Shown: one piece after another, positions 5,308 to 37,097 of the stretch
How positions within the stretch are numbered: position 1 is the stretch's first letter
How the letters are laid out: every line of letters starts with the position of its first letter
Assembly: GCA_015491995.1 (NCBI GenBank)
Contig: WGFY01000068.1
Location: 1 to 64,000 of the forward strand
Source of the DNA: Mesoaciditoga sp.
Lineage (GTDB): Bacteria; Thermotogota; Thermotogae; Mesoaciditogales; Mesoaciditogaceae
DNA: 64,000 bases
Reading direction: 5' to 3'
Notes under the pieces: model-generated
The model's database searches: none
What the model was told of the DNA's origin: nothing
Seen by the model: the letters and a program-made list of their open reading frames with translations, nothing else
Translations under genes and position numbers: made by a program

Positions 5308-7149
5308 TTATTCCCCCTTTAGGTGCACATCTAACAGAAGTAAATCGGTTGGCGTAACACCTTGAATTTTTGCAGCTTGACTGAGATCTTTAGGCTTAAA
5401 TTTGTTAAGTTTTTGAACGGACTCGGTAGAGAGCCCCGAAATTTTTGAAAAATTAAAACCATCAGGTATTCGCACTTTCTCGAGATTTTGAAGTTTTTTC
5501 ACACTAACGAGTTCTTTTTGAATATAACCACCATATTTTGCTTCTATCTCAATTTCTTTTATAGCTTCGGAATCCATAAAGGGTTCTGGATCGTAGGGTT
5601 TTACATCTTCATATGTAATTTTGGGAGCACGCAACAAACTCAAAAGCGATACGTGCTTTTCAGTTTTGAGTTTTCCTTTTAATTCTTCTGGGACTTTTAA
5701 ATGTATCTTTCCAAGTCTTTCTATACCATCATTAACGTTTTTCTCAAGCCTCAACACACGTTCGTAAAACCCTTTATCTATCAATCCTGCCTCATAAGCG
5801 TACTTTGTCAATCTTAAATGTGCGTTGTCATCTCTCAAAAGCAACCTGTATTCCGCACGTGAGCTTAACATACGGTAAGGCTCGTCCACACCTTTAGATG
5901 TGATGTCATCTGTCAAAACACCTATATATGCCTCGTATCGTCTCAAAATGATCTGCTTACCACCTTTGAGTTTCAATCCGGCATTTATACCGGCAACCAT
6001 TCCCTGGCCAGCCGCTTCTTCGTACCCACTTGTTCCGTTGATCTGACCGGCCAAATACAGATTTTCAACAATTCTGGACTCTAACGTCTGATAAAGCTGC
6101 GTTGGATCAGCATAATCGTACTCTACAGCGTAAGCTGGGCGAATGATCCTGGCATGTTCTAACCCTTTCAAAGTATGAAGCATCTCTATTTGTGTGCTGT
6201 AAGGCAAAGAGGTGCTGAAACCGTTTATGTAATATTCCAAACTTTCTTTTCCTTCTGGTTCTACAAAAAGTTGATGAGAATCTCTATCTGGGAACTTTAC
6301 AACCTTATCTTCAATGGATGGACAATACCTTGGACCAATGGAGTTGATGAGTTTCACATCACCGTACATAGGAGAAAATTTCAAATTTTCGCGTATTATC
6401 TCATGCGTCTTGACATTAGTCCTTGTAATATAACATGGATAATCTTTTGAAAGAACTACCGCTTTGTCTCTGTAAGAGAATGCCAAAGGATCATCAGACG
6501 TATCTTGCCGTTCAAGAGTGGAAAAGTCTATTGAAGATTTGAGCACCCTTGGCGGTGTTCCAGTTTTAAATCTTGACATTCTTATTCCAACTTCTTTAAG
6601 GCTATCCGTAAGTCCTTCAGCAGGAGGCTCTCCCATACGCCCAGCAGGCAAAGAATTCGGACCTATGAATATCCTTCCACCTAAAAATGTCCCCGTTGTC
6701 ACTATAACCGCATGACAATCATATTTTATGCCGAGTGCTGTTCCAACACCGTTCACACGCCCTTTATCAACGAAAATCCTCGTTGCAATCCCTTGGCGAA
6801 GGGTCAAATTCACATGATCAAGGATAACCTGTTTTGCCCTTAGTGAATAAGCGTATTTGTCAACTTGCGCACGCAAAGCTCTAACTGCAGGACCTTTTGA
6901 GGTGTTAAGTATGCGTATGTTTATCATGGCACGATCCGTAATGCGCGCCATTTCCCCTCCCAATGCATCTACTTCCCTGGCAATTTGCCCTTTTGCCGGT
7001 CCTCCGATCGCCGGATTGCATGGTGTCCATGCAATGGTATCAAGGTTTATTCCAAGCAACAGCGTTTTCAATCCTTGCTTTGCGGTGACTAAAGCTGCTT
7101 CTGTTCCGGCATGACCAGCTCCTATTACCACAACATCGTACTTTTCCAA
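5308..7149 (-). CDS. mnmG: tRNA uridine-5-carboxymethylaminomethyl modification enzyme MnmG (GidA)
   Basis: [14 protein letters not shown] motif, [38 protein letters not shown]. Confidence 0.97.
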
Positions 7150-27572: not shown

Positions 27573-27920
27573 ATGGAAGAAGGGTTTAAAGTGAAAATAG
27601 AAACGGTCGTAAAAGAGCTTGTATCCTCCGAAAAGGATTCTAAGGGTATCATTCAAAATACGAAAGAAAAAAGTGAAAAGATGATAAAAGAGGCTGAAAA
27701 GAAAGGAAAAGAGCTTCTTGAAGCAAAAACGAACGAAGCAAACGTAACGGCAAGAAGGATACTGGAAGATTCAAAAGAAAAAATGCGAACATACGACGAA
27801 AAGATGTTGGATGACGCTCGAAAAAAGTTCAAGAACATCAGAGAGACGTATTTGAATATGAAAAACGAGATAATGGAGAATTTTATATCTGATTTTCTTA
27901 AAGGGAAAAAGAATGGGTAG
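27573..27920 (+). CDS. V-type ATPase peripheral stalk subunit (G/H-like coiled coil)
   Basis: Charged coiled coil, first gene of the ATPase operon; GTG at 27591 after GAAGAAGGG may be the real start. Confidence 0.75.
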   Translation: MEEGFKVKIETVVKELVSSEKDSKGIIQNTKEKSEKMIKEAEKKGKELLEAKTNEANVTARRILEDSKEKMRTYDEKMLDDARKKFKNIRETYLNMKNEIMENFISDFLKGKKNG

Positions 27921-28998
27921 CATACTGGCATATGCTGGCGTAAGAGCAAAATTAGCCGGTATGGCAAACCGCTTTTTAAAAAAAAGCGATTACGAAATAC
28001 TCATGAGTAAAAAAAGTGTGCCAGAAATAACAACATATCTCCAGCAAACCAAGATGTACTCAAAGGCTTTGAAAAATATCAATCCTGAAGAATTACATCG
28101 AAGATATTTGGAGATGTTGCTGAAAGCGGATTTGGTGGAGGATGTGAGGAGATTTTTTACGTTCTTCGTAACTTTAGACAAGGCATTCGCATCTTACGTG
28201 ATAAGAATGTACGAAATTGAGAATTTGAAGTTGGCTCTAAGGAATACGCTTGTGGAAAAGGAATCAAAGAAAAATCTGGAGGAACTGAAAAGCAAATTTT
28301 ATGATTTGGGCAAGAGAGCACTTGTAGACCCCATGAAGGTGGCTTCAGCCGTTGGTAAAGATGAAATACTGAATTCGTTGGAAAGCACTCCTTACTATGA
28401 AGTGGTGAGAAACGTGTTCGTTAGTTATAAGGGAGAAACGCCAAATTTGATTGGAAGCGTGGAAAACGGATTGGATAGATGGTTGTTTTTTGGCTTTCTA
28501 AATGCGGCAAAGGATTTAGGATACGATGACTATATGATAGTTAAAGAAATGATAGGAGAGCGAATCGATCTCATCAACATAGAATGGATAATAAGGGCAA
28601 AAAGTTTTTATTCTTTAAGGGCCGAAGAACTTTACAATTCTCTTATTCCTATGGAATTCAGAATGAACGTGTCATTGCTACACAAGCTGTGCGATGCAAA
28701 GCACTTTGAAGAGGATTTAGAACTTCTTATCGGAAGTTCATACAAAAATCTTTTTAGCGATATTTCTGAAAGTTCAGAAAACGTAACGCCGGAGATGGTA
28801 ACACTCGCCATGAGAAAATACCTTTACGGGAAGACCAAAAGGGCCTTATCTACGTTAGGCGGCTTCTCAATAGCTTCGTTTTTCCATTATCTTTTCCTTA
28901 AGGAGTACGAGATAATGGATATAACGACTATAATTGAAGGTGTTCGATACAATATAGAAGCGAAAGAGATAGAGAAATACTTGACAGCATCATTTTGA
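27913..28998 (+). CDS. V-type ATPase subunit C
   Basis: AYAGVRAKLAGMANRFLKKSDYEILMS; position in operon. Confidence 0.85.
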   Translation: MGSILAYAGVRAKLAGMANRFLKKSDYEILMSKKSVPEITTYLQQTKMYSKALKNINPEELHRRYLEMLLKADLVEDVRRFFTFFVTLDKAFASYVIRMYEIENLKLALRNTLVEKESKKNLEELKSKFYDLGKRALVDPMKVASAVGKDEILNSLESTPYYEVVRNVFVSYKGETPNLIGSVENGLDRWLFFGFLNAAKDLGYDDYMIVKEMIGERIDLINIEWIIRAKSFYSLRAEELYNSLIPMEFRMNVSLLHKLCDAKHFEEDLELLIGSSYKNLFSDISESSENVTPEMVTLAMRKYLYGKTKRALSTLGGFSIASFFHYLFLKEYEIMDITTIIEGVRYNIEAKEIEKYLTASF

Positions 28999-29007
28999 GG
29001 TGATGAT

Positions 29008-30948
29008 ATGGCAGTAGTCAAAATGAAAAACATTACTCTTGCTTTTCCAGAAGAAGACTCCGAGAATGTAAGCCTGGATCTGCTTTCATCTGAATCGTTT
29101 GAGCCAATGGAAATAAGAGGAATTCTTGTTGAGAATGTGGAAAAAGAACTTTTGCAACTTGAAAATAAAAACCCGTATCAAGAAGTGTACACAGAGATGG
29201 TGCAGTTCTTGAAGATGACCGAATACACTCCTAATTTCGATAGCTCCAAGATAAATGAGAAATTCGATCTTCAAAAAACTCTAAAAAGATTTTCGCTTTT
29301 GAACAAAAGCATAAAGAGATTTTTCGATAAAAAAAATGAGCTGGGCAAAAAACTTCAAGAGTATGAAAAAGTGCTCTTCTACGTCAGAATATTGGCTGGG
29401 TTGGACGTTGAAATGGAAAATCTATCAGAAATAAGAAGAATAAAAATGTTTTTTGGAAGGGTTCCGGTAAGACATTACGAGCCTTTGGTGGAATCTTCCC
29501 TTAACGTTCCAATTTTGGTGTTAGAGACGAACAGAGATAAGGACAGCTCTTGGATATTTGTTTTCACGACGCCAGACTTCACAGATGAAACACATAAAAT
29601 ACTCCAATCGGCCTACTTTGAAGAAGACAAACTGCCGGTTGATTATCAGGGAACACCAAAAGAAATTCAAAGAAGAATCGAATCACTCATCAAAATAACA
29701 AAAATTTCCATGGGAGAAAACGACAGCGTTGTAAAAAAAGTTCTCTATGCGAGTAAGGAATTCGTGGATGATCTTTATTCAACAATCGTTTCGCATAAGA
29801 GAGCTTACGATTTATCGACGTTCAACAACACCACACCACAAAAAAACGTTCATTTTATAAGTGGATGGATGCCGATGAGTGAGGTGAACAACCTTGGCAA
29901 GAATTTGGGAAGAGACGTGTTGTTGATAGAGAATTCTTCCGAAGAAATTGTCCAAAAAAATTCCTCCATAAAAATTCCAGTAAAGTTGAAAAACAGGGGA
30001 AAGATCGTTCAATCTTTTGAATTCATAACGCAAATGTTTGGTACTCCCCGTTATGGTGAAATAGATCCAACACCATTTATCACAGCGTTCTTCATATTCA
30101 TGTACGGTTTTATGTTAGGTGATGTAGGACATGGATTGGTGCTTTTCCTATTCGGATATTTACTCTATAGAAAAGGATCTGGCAAATTTGGAATTGTGAT
30201 GATGAGCTCGGCACTTTCATCGGTTTTTTTTGGTTTTATGTATGGATCGATCTTCGGGTTTGAAAATTGGATACCAGATTTATGGTTAAGACCGATCATT
30301 CAGATAAACCAACTGTTAGAAATTTCCGTTTTCTATGGGATAGGAATGTTGATATTTGGAATGGTGTTGAACGTGATAAATGGTTTCAAACAAAAAGATA
30401 TGGAAAAAGCTTTGTTCAGCGCGGAAGGTATAGTAGGTTTGATCTTTTACATTCCGTCCATAATTCTTACGACATTTTACTTTATAAGTAAACCAATACC
30501 ATTTAGCCCAATGTTTTGGGAAGTACTGTTGGGTACTTCGTTGGTAATCATGTTTTTCAAGAAACCGTTGGCACAAATTATCACGCATCAGCGAGTTTCT
30601 TTACCAAACGGTTTCTGGGTTGAGAGTGGATTTGGAATGTTTGAAACTCTAATTTCTTACCTTAGTAACGCCATATCTTTCGTCAGGTTAGCGGCTTTTG
30701 CGTTAACTCACGAGGCTCTATTCGTGGCATTTTGGGTTTTAACGTTGATGGTACTTCCAGCTCCTGGTGGAGATGCTTGGGCATTTATCGTTTTCATGTT
30801 AGGTCAATTCATGCTCGTTGGCTTAGAAGGATTGGTGGTTTTCATTCAAGATCTAAGGCTTATATACTATGAATTTTTTACCAAATTTTTTGAAGCAACT
30901 GGTAGAGATTTCCATCCATTTCTTTTCGTGGAAGGTGATGTTAAATGA
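29008..30948 (+). CDS. V-type ATPase membrane subunit I (a)
   Basis: TPFITAFFIFMYGFMLGDVGHGLVLF, LSYLSNAISFVRLAAFALTHEAL. Confidence 0.92.
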   Translation: MAVVKMKNITLAFPEEDSENVSLDLLSSESFEPMEIRGILVENVEKELLQLENKNPYQEVYTEMVQFLKMTEYTPNFDSSKINEKFDLQKTLKRFSLLNKSIKRFFDKKNELGKKLQEYEKVLFYVRILAGLDVEMENLSEIRRIKMFFGRVPVRHYEPLVESSLNVPILVLETNRDKDSSWIFVFTTPDFTDETHKILQSAYFEEDKLPVDYQGTPKEIQRRIESLIKITKISMGENDSVVKKVLYASKEFVDDLYSTIVSHKRAYDLSTFNNTTPQKNVHFISGWMPMSEVNNLGKNLGRDVLLIENSSEEIVQKNSSIKIPVKLKNRGKIVQSFEFITQMFGTPRYGEIDPTPFITAFFIFMYGFMLGDVGHGLVLFLFGYLLYRKGSGKFGIVMMSSALSSVFFGFMYGSIFGFENWIPDLWLRPIIQINQLLEISVFYGIGMLIFGMVLNVINGFKQKDMEKALFSAEGIVGLIFYIPSIILTTFYFISKPIPFSPMFWEVLLGTSLVIMFFKKPLAQIITHQRVSLPNGFWVESGFGMFETLISYLSNAISFVRLAAFALTHEALFVAFWVLTLMVLPAPGGDAWAFIVFMLGQFMLVGLEGLVVFIQDLRLIYYEFFTKFFEATGRDFHPFLFVEGDVK

Positions 30949-31412
30949 CACTTTTTCAATTCCTTGTTTTCTTGGTTTTCTTGATGATGTTGATATCTTT
31001 TTTGATTTTCAGGGGAAATATGCTGAAAACACAAAAGAAGAGAAAAAAGGAGGCTTCGGATGTGAAATTGATCAAATACACAGCCCTTGGGGGAAACGTC
31101 ATCATCGGCTTAGCCCTTCTTGCATTGTTTCTCACTCCAGATAAAGCAACGGCAGCGGCCATGAATTCATCAATATCGTCAACGATGAAATTACTTAATC
31201 CGGCGGGACTTGGATTTATAGGCGCGGGACTCTCCACCGGTTTGGCTTCTATCGGTGCTGGATGGGGAACGGGTATAGTTGGTGGTTCTTCGATAAAAGT
31301 CGGTCGCTTAAACAGTGGAATGCTTGGAAAATCCATGATATTCGCAGGACTCGCAAACGGGGTTGCAACTTATGGTCTTATAATCTCTATTCTCATTCTC
31401 AGCAGAATTTAA
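30945..31412 (+). CDS. V-type ATPase proteolipid K1 (extra N-terminal 2-TM module; Glu replaced by Asn)
   Basis: GLGFIGAGLSTGLASIGAGWGTGIVGG ... MIFAGLANGVATYGLIISILIL; AAC codon at 31356-31358. Confidence 0.88.
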   Translation: MTLFQFLVFLVFLMMLISFLIFRGNMLKTQKKRKKEASDVKLIKYTALGGNVIIGLALLALFLTPDKATAAAMNSSISSTMKLLNPAGLGFIGAGLSTGLASIGAGWGTGIVGGSSIKVGRLNSGMLGKSMIFAGLANGVATYGLIISILILSRI

Positions 31413-31429
31413 GGAAGTTGGTGAACAAT

Positions 31430-31894
31430 ATGCTTTTAGTGTTTGTAGGAATATTTAGTACTCTTGTAATAACGATATTGATGTTGGAAACAGTTTTGAA
31501 CAAAAAACTATTTGTTGAAAGTCGTTACACTAAAAAATTGAAAAAGCTGATAATTTCTAATTTAGGAGTTTTGGTTTCTCTCATGTTATTTGGACTGGTT
31601 ATGATTTCTCCCGACAAGGCGGTGGCGACACCCATCACAAATAGTGGCGAAGGAATAACCAAACTTGCAACCACCCTTATAAATCCTGGACTTGGATATA
31701 TCGGTTCAGGGCTTTCCACGGGATTGGCATCGCTCGGGGCAGGAGTTGGAACCGGAATAGTTGGCGCCAAGTCCATAAATATCTTAAGATTTAATCCAAA
31801 ACTCCTTGGAAAATCCATGATATTCGCAGGGCTCGCAAACGGAGTCGCAACTTATGGTCTTATAATATCCATACTTATAATGAGCAGAGTTTGA
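31430..31894 (+). CDS. V-type ATPase proteolipid K2 (extra N-terminal 2-TM module; Glu replaced by Asn)
   Basis: GLGYIGSGLSTGLASLGAGVGTGIVGA ... MIFAGLANGVATYGLIISILIM; AAC codon at 31838-31840. The ORF-track start at 31262 lies inside K1 and is not credible. Confidence 0.88.
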   Translation: MLLVFVGIFSTLVITILMLETVLNKKLFVESRYTKKLKKLIISNLGVLVSLMLFGLVMISPDKAVATPITNSGEGITKLATTLINPGLGYIGSGLSTGLASLGAGVGTGIVGAKSINILRFNPKLLGKSMIFAGLANGVATYGLIISILIMSRV

Positions 31895-31910
31895 AGGGAG
31901 GAGTTTTAAA

Positions 31911-32369
31911 ATGTTTGTTTCATTCGTGTTGATGTCTTTAACCGTGTTCGCCACCATAATTCTTGGTGTGATATTCAGTAACAAAAGGGTTATGGAGCAT
32001 GTGAGCTCTCCTGTAAAAGTGGGTAAGAGAACTTTGGGAATTAACATGGTCTCCTTGTTTAGTTTCATGACATTTGCCATTCTCTCGTTGATCCCAAGTG
32101 GGCATGCTTTTGCGGCTACGGCAAATTCCGCAGCAACTTCTGTCGCGGTTACTATCAACCCCGGCTTGGGATACATAGGCGCGGGCCTTTCCACTGGGTT
32201 AGCATCAATGGGAGCAGGAATAGGTGTTGGCATTGCCGGAGCAGCAGGTATAGGAGCCATAAGTGAACAACCTGATATGCTTGGAAGAACGCTTATTTAC
32301 GTTGGATTGGCGGAGGGAGTTGCCATTTACGGTTTGATCATATCGATAATGATATTCGGAAGGATTTGA
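31911..32369 (+). CDS. V-type ATPase proteolipid K3 (canonical ion-binding Glu retained)
   Basis: GLGYIGAGLSTGLASMGAGIGVGIAGAAGIGAISEQPDMLGRTLIYVGLAEGVAIYGLIISIMIF; GAG codon at 32313-32315. Confidence 0.92.
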   Translation: MFVSFVLMSLTVFATIILGVIFSNKRVMEHVSSPVKVGKRTLGINMVSLFSFMTFAILSLIPSGHAFAATANSAATSVAVTINPGLGYIGAGLSTGLASMGAGIGVGIAGAAGIGAISEQPDMLGRTLIYVGLAEGVAIYGLIISIMIFGRI

Positions 32370-32686
32370 CTAAAATGAGATTCTTCCTCATCAGTGATAA
32401 CATAGACACTCAAATAGGTTTAAGACTTGTTGGAGTAAAGGGTGTTGTCGTTCATGAAAAGGAAGAAACGCTCACAGCATTAGAAAAAGCAAAAAAAATG
32501 AAAGACGTGGGAATAATACTTATGACTGAAAAAATTGCGACTCTCGTCCCAGAAATTGTCTACAAATCAAGAACTTCAAAATCGCTTCCTCTTCTAACGA
32601 TTATTCCAGATAGGCATGGAACGACGCGTCCTAAGGACTTTATAACCCGTTATGTTAAGGAAGCAATTGGAGTGAGGATAAAGTGA
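32366..32686 (+). CDS. V-type ATPase subunit F
   Basis: DNIDTQIGLRLVGVKGVVVHEKEE; size and position. Confidence 0.85.
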   Translation: MTKMRFFLISDNIDTQIGLRLVGVKGVVVHEKEETLTALEKAKKMKDVGIILMTEKIATLVPEIVYKSRTSKSLPLLTIIPDRHGTTRPKDFITRYVKEAIGVRIK

Positions 32687-33297
32687 ATATCGAAAAGAAA
32701 CTCAATTCTCTGAAAGAATATGTTAAATCTAAAGCATTGAATGAAGCCGATGAAATAATCAAAACGGCTAAAATTCAAGTAAAAAAAGTGGATAAAGAGT
32801 ACAAAGAAAAAGCTGAAGAAACTTATTCGAGAATAATAGAAGAAGCCAAGAAGAAAGTGTCAACCATGGAAAGGCGTGAAATGGCTCAATCGCGTGCAAA
32901 AGCATCGAAGATGTTTTTGGATGCCAAAAACGAGATTTTGAAATCGTCACTTGAAGAATTGAAAGGTAGAATTTACGCTTTAAGTACTAATAAAAAATAC
33001 GAAGAACTTCTTGAAAAACTTACGTTGGAAGCGATAAAGGAATTAGGTAAAAAAGAGGTCATCGTATCCGTTAGAAACGAAGACGATGCAAAGATGAAAA
33101 GCATCATAAAGAAATTGGAAAAAGATTTGAAAGCAAAAATCACTCTTTCCACTGAACATGTAAAGATCATGGGAGGCGTGATAGTGACAATCATAGATAA
33201 TCATGTTATGGTGGAAAACACACTTGAAAACAAATTCGAAGAAGTGAAAGAAAGCTTCATCTCACTTTTGTTTTCAAGATTAAATGTCGATGGGTGA
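32683..33297 (+). CDS. V-type ATPase subunit E
   Basis: N-terminal coiled coil and C-terminal GGVIVTIIDNHVMVENTLENKFEE. Confidence 0.87.
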   Translation: MNIEKKLNSLKEYVKSKALNEADEIIKTAKIQVKKVDKEYKEKAEETYSRIIEEAKKKVSTMERREMAQSRAKASKMFLDAKNEILKSSLEELKGRIYALSTNKKYEELLEKLTLEAIKELGKKEVIVSVRNEDDAKMKSIIKKLEKDLKAKITLSTEHVKIMGGVIVTIIDNHVMVENTLENKFEEVKESFISLLFSRLNVDG

Positions 33298-35093
33298 TGC
33301 AAATGAATAAAACAATTGGAAAAGTTTACATGATAAACGGTCCTGTCGTTAAGGCGAAGGAAATGACAGGGGTCATGATGCACGAAGTTGTAAAGGTTGG
33401 AAATTTGAAGCTTACAGGAGAGGTGATCTCTCTTGAAAATGATGATGTTACCATCGAGGTCTATGAGGAAACGTCAGGATTGAAACCAGGTGAACCGGTA
33501 GAAGGGACAGGGGAACTTTTATCAGTGATATTAGGTCCTGGAATCATAAAGAGTGTTTACGATGGGATTCAGCGTCCTTTAAATGTACTCAGAAATAAAT
33601 CCGGTGACTTTCTTGAAAGGGGAGTCAACGCTGATGCGTTGGACATGAGTAAAGAGTGGGAGGTTGAAGTTCTGGTAAAAGAGGGCGATCGTGTTGTTCC
33701 CGGGCAAGTGGTGGCAAAAGTTAAAGAAACAGCGTCCGTTGAGCATAGAATCATGATTCCGCCGGAGATATCCGGAAAAGCAGCAGATGTCCAGAAGTCT
33801 GGAAAATATAATTTGGACGCAAATTTGTTGACGGTGGAATTAGATAATGGCGGTAAAAGAGGTGTGAAACTTTATCAGAAATGGCCCGTTAGAGTTCCAA
33901 GACCGGTGAAGAAAAGATTGGCACCTTCCGAACCTCTGATAACTGGGCAACGCGTCATAGACACTTTTTTCCCGATAAGTAAAGGTGGAACGGCGGCAAT
34001 TCCTGGTGGATTTGGAACAGGAAAAACCATAACGCAGCATCAGCTTGCAAAGTGGTCAGATGCCGATATAGTTGTGTACATAGGATGTGGAGAGCGTGGA
34101 AATGAAATGACCGAAGTGCTGGAGGAATTTCCTCAGCTTAGAGATCCACGTAACGGGCAACCTTTGATGGAAAGAACGGTACTAATAGCAAACACATCAA
34201 ACATGCCTGTTTCAGCGCGCGAAGCTTCGATATATACTGGCGTAACGATAGCTGAATATTTCAGGGATATGGGGTATCATGTTGCCCTTATGGCTGATTC
34301 AACTTCAAGATGGGCGGAAGCACTCAGAGAGATATCAGGGCGTTTGGAAGAAATGCCGGCTGAGGAGGGATTTCCACCGTATTTGTCTTCAAGATTGGCT
34401 GAATTTTATGAACGTGCTGGAAAAGCAACTTTGTTAGGGAGCGTGGATAAAGTTGGATCCATTTCCATCATAGGAGCTGTGTCTCCTCCAGGAGGAGATT
34501 TCTCAGAACCGGTTACAACACATACGAAAAGATTCATAAGATGTTTTTGGGCATTAGATAAATCGCTTGCAAACGCGAGACACTATCCGTCTATAAGCTG
34601 GTTGAATAGCTATAGTGAGTACACAATGGAGCTAAAAAATTGGTTTGATGAGAATGTCAACCCCGATTTTGCAAATCTTGTAAAAAAAGCGATGAACATC
34701 TTCAGTGAAGATGACAATTTGCAGCAGATAATAAAACTGGTCGGGGAGGATGTCCTTCCAGATGATCAAAAGCTTGTCGTTAGGGTAGCGAATATATTGA
34801 AAATTGGTTATCTACAGCAAAGCGCATTCAGCGATGTGGATGCATTTTGTGAACTTGCCAAACAAAACGAGATGTTGAAGCTAATTTTGATGTATTACGA
34901 TCGTGCGATGGTGCTTGTTTCAAAAGGTGTTGCGATTTCGGAAGTGCTAAATGAGACCATGATAAATACCTTGATGAGGATGAAAGAAAAAATTCCAAAT
35001 GACAAATTAAATGAATTTGAGGAAATTGAAAAAAGCCTTGAATCTTTATTCGACTCGTTGAACAAAAAGTACAATCAGGCAAAGGAGGCGTAA
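33294..35093 (+). CDS. V-type ATPase catalytic subunit A
   Basis: [53 protein letters not shown]-type motif. Confidence 0.97.
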
Positions 35094-35097
35094 TGAT

Positions 35098-36486
35098 ATG
35101 CCCCTTAAAGAATATGTAGGCTTATCACAGATAAACGGGCCGCTCGTTTTTGTGGAAAATGTTGAGAATATTGGATACAACGAAGTGGTTGAAATAATTT
35201 TCAGGGACAAAAAAAGGTTTGGTCAAGTTGTGCAAGTCAGTAAGAATTTTGCCGTGATTCAAGTTTTTGAGGGAACTGAAGGTCTTAATCTAAACGAGAC
35301 AAGGGTAAAATTTTTAGGGAAAACATTGCAGATAAAGGTGTCCGAGGAAGTTTTGGGAAGGACATTCAATGGTATAGGAAGGCCCATAGATGGTGGAGCA
35401 GAAATAGTCAATGGAGTTTATAAAGATGTGAACGGTTCTCCAATCAATCCAGCATCGCGTATGTATCCAAAGAATTTTATACAAACTGGCATATCCGCTA
35501 TTGACGGCCTCATGACACTTATACGTGGACAAAAGTTACCCATCTTCTCAGGCAATGGCCTTCCACATAACAGATTGGCCGTTCAAATAACGAAACAGGC
35601 TAAATTAAAGGGAGAAGAAAGTGGCGATTTTGCAATAGTATTTGCCGCGATGGGGATAAAACATGACGATGCACAATATATCTTGTCAAGCTTTGAAGAG
35701 TCGGGTGCTGTTAAAAATGTGGTCACATTCTTAAACCTTGCAGATGATCCAACAATTGAAAGAATTTCAACTCCTCGTGTCGCCCTCACCGCTGCTGAGT
35801 ATTTGGCATTTGAAAAAGATATGCATGTTTTGGTCATATTAACCGATATGACCAATTATTGTGAAGCCTTACGTGAGCTATCCACCGCTAGGGGAGAAGT
35901 TCCATCTAGAAAAGGCTACCCAGGGTACCTTTATAGCGACTTGGCAGCTATTTACGAAAGGGCTGGCATGATAAATGGCAAAAAGGGGTCTGTTACCCAA
36001 ATTCCCATTTTATCGATGCCAAATGATGATATAACACACCCAATACCGGATCTTACCGGTTATATTACAGAGGGACAAATAGTTTTAAGCAGAGAACTTC
36101 AAAGGAAAGGTGTCCACCCACCGATAGGCATATTGCCCTCTTTATCAAGGTTGATGAAAGATGGGATAGGAAAAGGATTTACACGTGATGATCATCCACA
36201 CGTCTCGAGTCAGCTTTTCGCAGCCTACAGTCGTGTTCAAGAAACAAGGGCATTGGCTTCCATAATAGGTGAAGAAGAACTGACAAACGCGGATAAAAAA
36301 TACCTTAAGTTTGGTGAAGCTTTTGAAAAGGAATTTTTATCTCAAGGTGAAGAAGAGGATAGAATGATCGAAGAAACACTTGATATAGGTTGGCGTGTTT
36401 TAGGATATTTGCCAACATCAGAGCTTACACGTGTAAATGAGGAAGAAATCAAAAAGCGTTATAAAGCAAGGGAAGATGTGAAATGA
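35098..36486 (+). CDS. V-type ATPase subunit B
   Basis: [50 protein letters not shown]. Confidence 0.97.
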
Positions 36487-37097
36487 GTGTCAATGTTTCT
36501 CCTACAAAAAGCAAGCTAATAGAAACGAAAAGATCACTTGTTTTGGCAAGAGAAGGGCACACGTTACTCGATAAAAAGAGAAACGTTCTCATAAGGGAGA
36601 TGATGCGCCTTATAGATTCCGCGAGAGAAATTCAAGAGAATATGGAAATAGTTTTCACCAATGCCTATGAAAGTTTTCAAAAAGCGAATTTGAGTATAGG
36701 CATAGAGCATGTTGAAGAAGTTGGAATTGCAATAGAAGAATTCTCAGATCTGGCGATCAGATTAAAAAGCATAATGGGTGTTGAAATCCCAGAAATAGAT
36801 GATATTTCTGAAGAAATAAGACTCTCTTACGGATTCGTTAAGACGGATGCAAACTTAGATGGGGCACATAAATCCTTTAAAAAGGCACTTTCTTTAATTG
36901 CAAATCTGGCCGAAATAGAAACAACGGTTTATAGGTTGGCAAGAGAAATAAAGAAGACTCAAAGAAGAGTTAACGCGTTGGAAAACGTTCTAATCCCTCA
37001 ATACGAAGAGACCGTAAAATTCATCGAATCTTACATAGAGGAAACGGAAAGAGACGATTTCTTTCGTATGAAAAGGTTAAAACAGAAAAAGGCATAA
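36483..37097 (+). CDS. V-type ATPase subunit D
   Basis: [52 protein letters not shown]. Confidence 0.95.

Follow-up and report, generated by a model that had tools for sequence, protein, structure and literature searches.

The window is a 64,000-nucleotide stretch of a Mesoaciditoga sp. assembly from the Mesoaciditogaceae-type Thermotogota (GCA_015491995.1, contig WGFY01000068.1, positions 1 to 64,000). It carries an intact V/A-type ATPase operon at 27573-37097 on the + strand, with the gene order H-C-I-K1-K2-K3-F-E-A-B-D, in which the stator Arg motif and all of the non-K subunits are intact. The genes are:

27573..27920, +, probable subunit H/G (peripheral stalk), assigned by position, the AhaH match being weak and below the cut-off
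27913..28998, +, subunit C (AC39/d), seated on the ring; PF01992
29008..30948, +, subunit I (stator a-subunit); essential-Arg motif FVRLAAFAL (Arg560), QDLRL near the C-terminus
30945..31412, +, K1, V-type proteolipid of 155 aa; PF00137; Asn codon AAC at 31356-31358
31430..31894, +, K2, V-type proteolipid of 154 aa; PF00137; Asn codon AAC at 31838-31840
31911..32369, +, K3, V-type proteolipid of 152 aa; PF00137; Glu codon GAG at 32313-32315
32366..32686, +, subunit F; PF01990
32683..33297, +, subunit E; PF01991
33294..35093, +, subunit A (catalytic); PF00006, PF16886
35098..36486, +, subunit B; PF00006
36483..37097, +, subunit D (central stalk); TIGR00309 above cut-off

Genes for F-type subunits c and a, one of each, lie on another contig of the same genome, which makes the V-type enzyme its second rotary ATPase. 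In subunit I, Asp615 (within QDLRL) lies two residues ahead of the second conserved Arg in all K1-lineage genomes, including G017, described below; the position is Ser, Ala or Thr in the other Thermotogota read.

The C-terminal hairpins of K1, K2 and K3 match PF00137 (ATP-synt_C) with 45, 53 and 68 bits, respectively, against a cut-off of 24 bits. Among the NCBIfam V-type subunit K equivalogs, the best (NF004888) gives 70.9 bits for K3, 42.1 for K1 and 41.3 for K2; the cut-off is 101, and this test does not discriminate because K3 too scores below it. An earlier, sequence-only reading had placed Asn, Asn and Glu at one position of the three proteins, and the codons bear this out, each lying exactly 18 codons before its stop. 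The ion-binding carboxylate of the outer helix is present in K3 and absent in K1 and K2. That reading had also considered that another carboxylate might occupy the ion site of K1 and K2; their predicted hairpin membrane segments contain no acidic residue. K1 and K2 are within the PF00137 domain family, yet by the carboxylate criterion they are predicted not to be ion-carrying subunits. They are also, as had been proposed, separate genes rather than the second hairpin of a fused protein, with reading frames of their own and an order that is kept in relatives. An upstream K2 start at 31262, present in the list of open reading frames, was rejected, as homologues and alignment favour 31430. Each K protein further has an N-terminal helix pair ending in AxA, a signal-peptidase-like motif that had gone unremarked; this pair is common to the V-type K proteins of most Thermotogota and is not what is new here. 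The Na+ ligands of c rings are an inner-helix Gln/Glu and a Ser/Thr following the Glu (PMC2359735). K3 departs from this pattern, with Val and Gly at these inner-helix and +1 positions, so the coupling ion is probably H+.

The occurrence of these genes was followed in a survey of 104 Thermotogota genomes, whose V-type loci were then read. Asn at the ion site is confined to one family among the Thermotogota V-type K loci read. The arrangement K1(Asn)-K2(Asn)-K3(Glu) is found in the window genome (G000), G015 and G016, and K1(Asn)-K3(Glu) in G013 and G014, while G009-G012 have a single Glu-bearing K. An Asn-bearing K1 is thus present in five genomes of three genera and an Asn-bearing K2 in three, always with one Glu-bearing K3 downstream. 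Asn is kept in all eight intact K1/K2 copies of these five genomes and Glu in all 11 K3 or single-K copies; each remaining Thermotogota V-type K that was read has Glu in at least one hairpin. The conserved K1-K2-K3 order with Asn, which the sequence-only reading had proposed to look for in related genomes, does occur in two other assemblies at high synonymous divergence. An assembly artefact or chance was rejected, because these two independent assemblies share K1-K2-K3 and two more share K1-K3. Named relatives of K1 come from Mesoaciditogaceae and Thermotogae MAGs. A search of mainly open-access literature returned no description of a site-less proteolipid encoded by a separate gene.

K1/K2 (n = 8) and K3/single K (n = 11) show fixed differences at seven positions of the hairpin, which are -29, -8, -7, -4, 0, +4 and +12 relative to the Glu. 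At the ion site, the changes from K3/single K to K1/K2 are Val to Thr at -29 (the inner-helix equivalent of Gln32 in Na+ rings), Glu to Asn at 0 and Ile to Thr at +4. In the cytoplasmic loop, the acidic SE[QK]P[DE] of K3/single K is replaced by basic residues in K1/K2. Within K3 itself, SEQPD occurs only in the three genomes with K2, and SEKPE or SEKPD in those without it, including G017. The Gly-zipper of the inner helix (G104, A105, G106, G108, G110, G113) is invariant across K1-K3, which makes ring packing of K1 and K2 plausible, and YGLIISI, the outer-helix sequence after the ion site, is fully kept in both. Together, the changes resemble those expected of a protomer that would still pack in the ring, with its site made neutral and polar. 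An AlphaFold model of K1 (10-row alignment) had a mean pLDDT of 52.7, too weak to back either fold or packing.

Selection on these genes was estimated by the Nei-Gojobori method from between-species comparisons of the 68 hairpin codons. The hairpin dN/dS ranges over 0.011-0.045 in K1, 0.031-0.109 in K2 and 0-0.101 in K3. Most dS values are about 0.6-1.4 (about 0.6-1.3 for K1 and K2), and the N-terminal part evolves faster than the hairpin in nearly all K comparisons. Purifying selection acts on the hairpins of K1 and K2 with about the same strength as on that of K3. On these values, the idea that K1 and K2 are generally decaying pseudogenes was rejected, although this description does hold in G017. 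There, a decayed K1/K2 remnant lies between intact subunit I and K3 (L037:8001-8440); it has 1-base and 33-base deletions, 2-base insertions and a premature stop, and K2 as a gene of its own has disappeared. The last 90 bases of the remnant match the K2 end as well, as expected if K1 and K2 had recombined before decay. This loss means that K1 and K2 are not essential in every lineage.

K1 and K2 form one clade with 100/100 support, parted from K3 by a long branch. In the simplest history, the change from Glu to Asn occurred once, before K1 and K2 split, and such a single origin is probable. Over their last 33 codons, K1 and K2 of the same genome share 78-85% nucleotide identity, and gene conversion at these similar 3' ends could also have contributed to the shared Asn. 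The tree built from subunits C, I, A and B has g4 (G015-G017) branching outside G000 and g3, and K2 is missing from g3. This topology points to a loss of K2 in g3 or to its transfer between lineages. The K2 of the window genome is nearer to the K2 of G016 than the tree of the other subunits predicts (window 31430-32369; L035/L036), a hint that lineages have recombined within the K cluster. Genomes with and without K1 also differ at 22 positions in subunit I and 13 in subunit C. Co-change of these subunits with K1/K2 was rejected, because G017 keeps nearly all of the 22 and 13 positions after losing K1/K2; the positions track ancestry.

Translation signals differ among the K genes. K3 has a strong Shine-Dalgarno sequence of its own, AAGGGAGG, and the pairing energies are -13.4 to -15.8 kcal/mol for K3 and all single-K genes, -11.9 to -12.4 kcal/mol for K1, and -10.6 to -13.6 kcal/mol, from interrupted pairings, for K2. 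The K1 start overlaps the stop of subunit I (ATGA) in all five genomes, while single-K starts fall 24-48 bases past that stop. These signals weakly suggest that K3 is the bulk subunit and that K1, coupled to a subunit I present once per complex, is a minority protomer. In fungi, c' and c'' are minority protomers. With K3 as bulk and K1 as minority, charge dilution of the ring may be mild instead of two thirds.

We consider the best explanation to be that K1 and K2 enter a heteromeric ring as a permanently neutral minority and so lower its ion/ATP ratio, and give it a probability of roughly 0.5. The operon would encode a complete ATP-driven V/A-type rotary pump in which K3 serves as the bulk, ion-carrying proteolipid and K1 and K2 are built in as specialized neutral protomers, Asn and the two Thr forming an uncharged polar site in place of the proton-carrying Glu. 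The hairpins of such a ring would outnumber the ions carried per turn, and the lower ion/ATP ratio would let one ATP pump against a steeper gradient, which would be of benefit when the external pH is low. The operon is placed among candidates for the heteromeric-ring class by its several proteolipid genes, whose ion sites are not equivalent. The sequence-only reading had offered much the same interpretation; it is partly supported, in that K1 and K2 are real, selected, separate, conserved in order and free of a carboxylate in the hairpin, while assembly into one ring, the proportions there and a lower ion/ATP ratio are its inferred part.

A ring with n carboxylates moves n ions per 3 ATP. At 50 kJ/mol ATP, the computed balancing gradient is 130 mV for n = 12, 155 mV for n = 10, 194 mV for n = 8 and 389 mV for n = 4, the 12-hairpin ring being an assumption borrowed from Thermus; one pH unit corresponds to about 65 mV at 330 K. 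Cultured members of the order grow at pH 4.1 to 7.5, and Athalassotoga at pH 4.5-7.5 (PMC7795431). Over the order's pH range, a mild dilution would aid proton export, and a steep-gradient benefit in this thermoacidophilic family is a plausible inference. Against it, Athalassotoga, also thermoacidophilic, manages at low pH with one K and without K1/K2, and G017 has dropped both. It is also conceivable, though we think it unlikely, that the ratio of K1/K2 (basic loops) to K3 (acidic), set by translation, serves as an adjustable gear that tunes the ion/ATP ratio of one enzyme.

Several known rings offer points of comparison. The F-type ring of Acetobacterium woodii has a 9:1 ratio of c2/3 to c1, as cited in PMC8904574. 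Like the ring proposed here, it is bacterial and combines products of different proteolipid genes, and its hairpins outnumber its ion sites. The A. woodii enzyme is F-type and its c1 joins the blank hairpin to one that bears a site, whereas here the blank protomers are two separate genes in a V-type operon. Blank hairpins do not keep the rings of A. woodii and of eukaryotic V-ATPases from working, and the c/c'/c'' set of the latter likewise comprises several proteolipid paralogues, with about half of the hairpins lacking the carboxylate. Each eukaryotic paralogue has one essential Glu and two or more hairpins, unlike K1 and K2, which have no Glu at the site. The best PDB matches of K1 include eukaryotic c'', with Trp at the same inner-helix position; the K1 Trp, inside the Gly-zipper (GAGWGTG), is kept in all five K1 copies and aligns with that of c''. 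Kinship through this common Trp was considered and taken as probably coincidence. Duplicated hairpins often lose ligands (PMC2359735). The two-hairpin K of Enterococcus hirae and archaea (e.g. PDB 2bl2) likewise arose by duplication and kept the site in one hairpin but not in the other, as did the two-hairpin K proteins of Thermotogota G058-G061; such a fusion fixes the ratio of blank to working hairpins at 1:1, which separate genes do not. K3 matches the L/K ring of the Thermus thermophilus V/A-ATPase (PDB 5gar and others) at E = 2e-10 and resembles it in having a single hairpin, a hydrophobic N-terminal stretch and one Glu. The T. thermophilus ring is homomeric, from one gene product, whereas the window operon has three K genes.

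Among the rival explanations, the one that survives best is unlikely but credible: K1 and K2 would be ring-like proteolipids outside the rotating ring, acting in ring assembly, lipid plugging or as a membrane partner of subunit I or C. Translational coupling of K1 to subunit I, loops that would face the central stalk and are strongly unlike those of K3, and dispensability in G017 would all fit such a role. However, the Gly-zipper and YGLIISI are fully kept, as ring packing needs, and an assembly factor has no obvious need for conserved exact ion-site residues.

Tolerance of neutral protomers in a ring is not automatic, since in the Bacillus PS3 c10 ring one Glu to Gln protomer abolishes pumping (Mitome 2004, as cited in PMC8809890). 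K1 and K2 might therefore act as a brake, with rings containing them stalled or slow and their level throttling the pump or blocking proton back-flow. The halting of that F-type pump by a single neutral protomer (PMC8809890) favours this idea, as do the F-type ATPase encoded in the same genome and the weaker translation signals of K1 compared with K3. We regard it as rather doubtful, however, because K1 and K2 are embedded in the operon, where no regulation of their own was seen, and two neutral paralogues would be odd for one brake.

The state of G017, where K1 is broken by indels and separate K2 is gone, with a remnant end that is also K2-like, together with the absence of K2 from g3, could indicate that K1 and K2 are functionless K3 duplicates that are being lost. 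This is improbable, since the hairpins of five genomes are under strong purifying selection at high synonymous divergence and Asn and both Thr are retained throughout. Least probable is an Asn/Thr site that binds or passes the ion in another way, so that every protomer still counts: the two Thr could join Asn in a polar pocket, but the membrane segments of the K1/K2 hairpins lack an acidic residue and the rotary mechanism requires a charged group responsive to the stator Arg.

Site-less proteolipids are also encoded elsewhere in the phylum. The F-type operon of G057 (one contig of 2,039,943 bases) has two tandem c genes between a and b (L056:6121-6375 and 6473-6772). The first has a two-carboxylate site (GEG...CETTGLY), and in the second both carboxylates are lost (GAG...CGTTGLY; inner Glu to Ala, outer Glu to Gly). 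No relative carrying such a second c gene was found among the loci compared. The two cases point to at least two separate origins of site-less tandem proteolipids among Thermotogota.

Compared with known heteromeric rotor rings, the proposed ring would be new in that its blank protomers are free-standing genes. The charge-diluted mixed ring raises the question of how the motor passes blank protomers, given that a Bacillus F-type ring is stopped by one. One family provides a natural comparison set for this, with K alone, K1 and K3, K1 with K2 and K3, and a recent loss. On current understanding, two things fix the ion/ATP ratio of rotary ATPases: ring size, and hairpin fusions in which some sites are blank. 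If the proposed ring is real, separate and selected genes for site-less proteolipids would add a third, under which the ratio could vary with expression.
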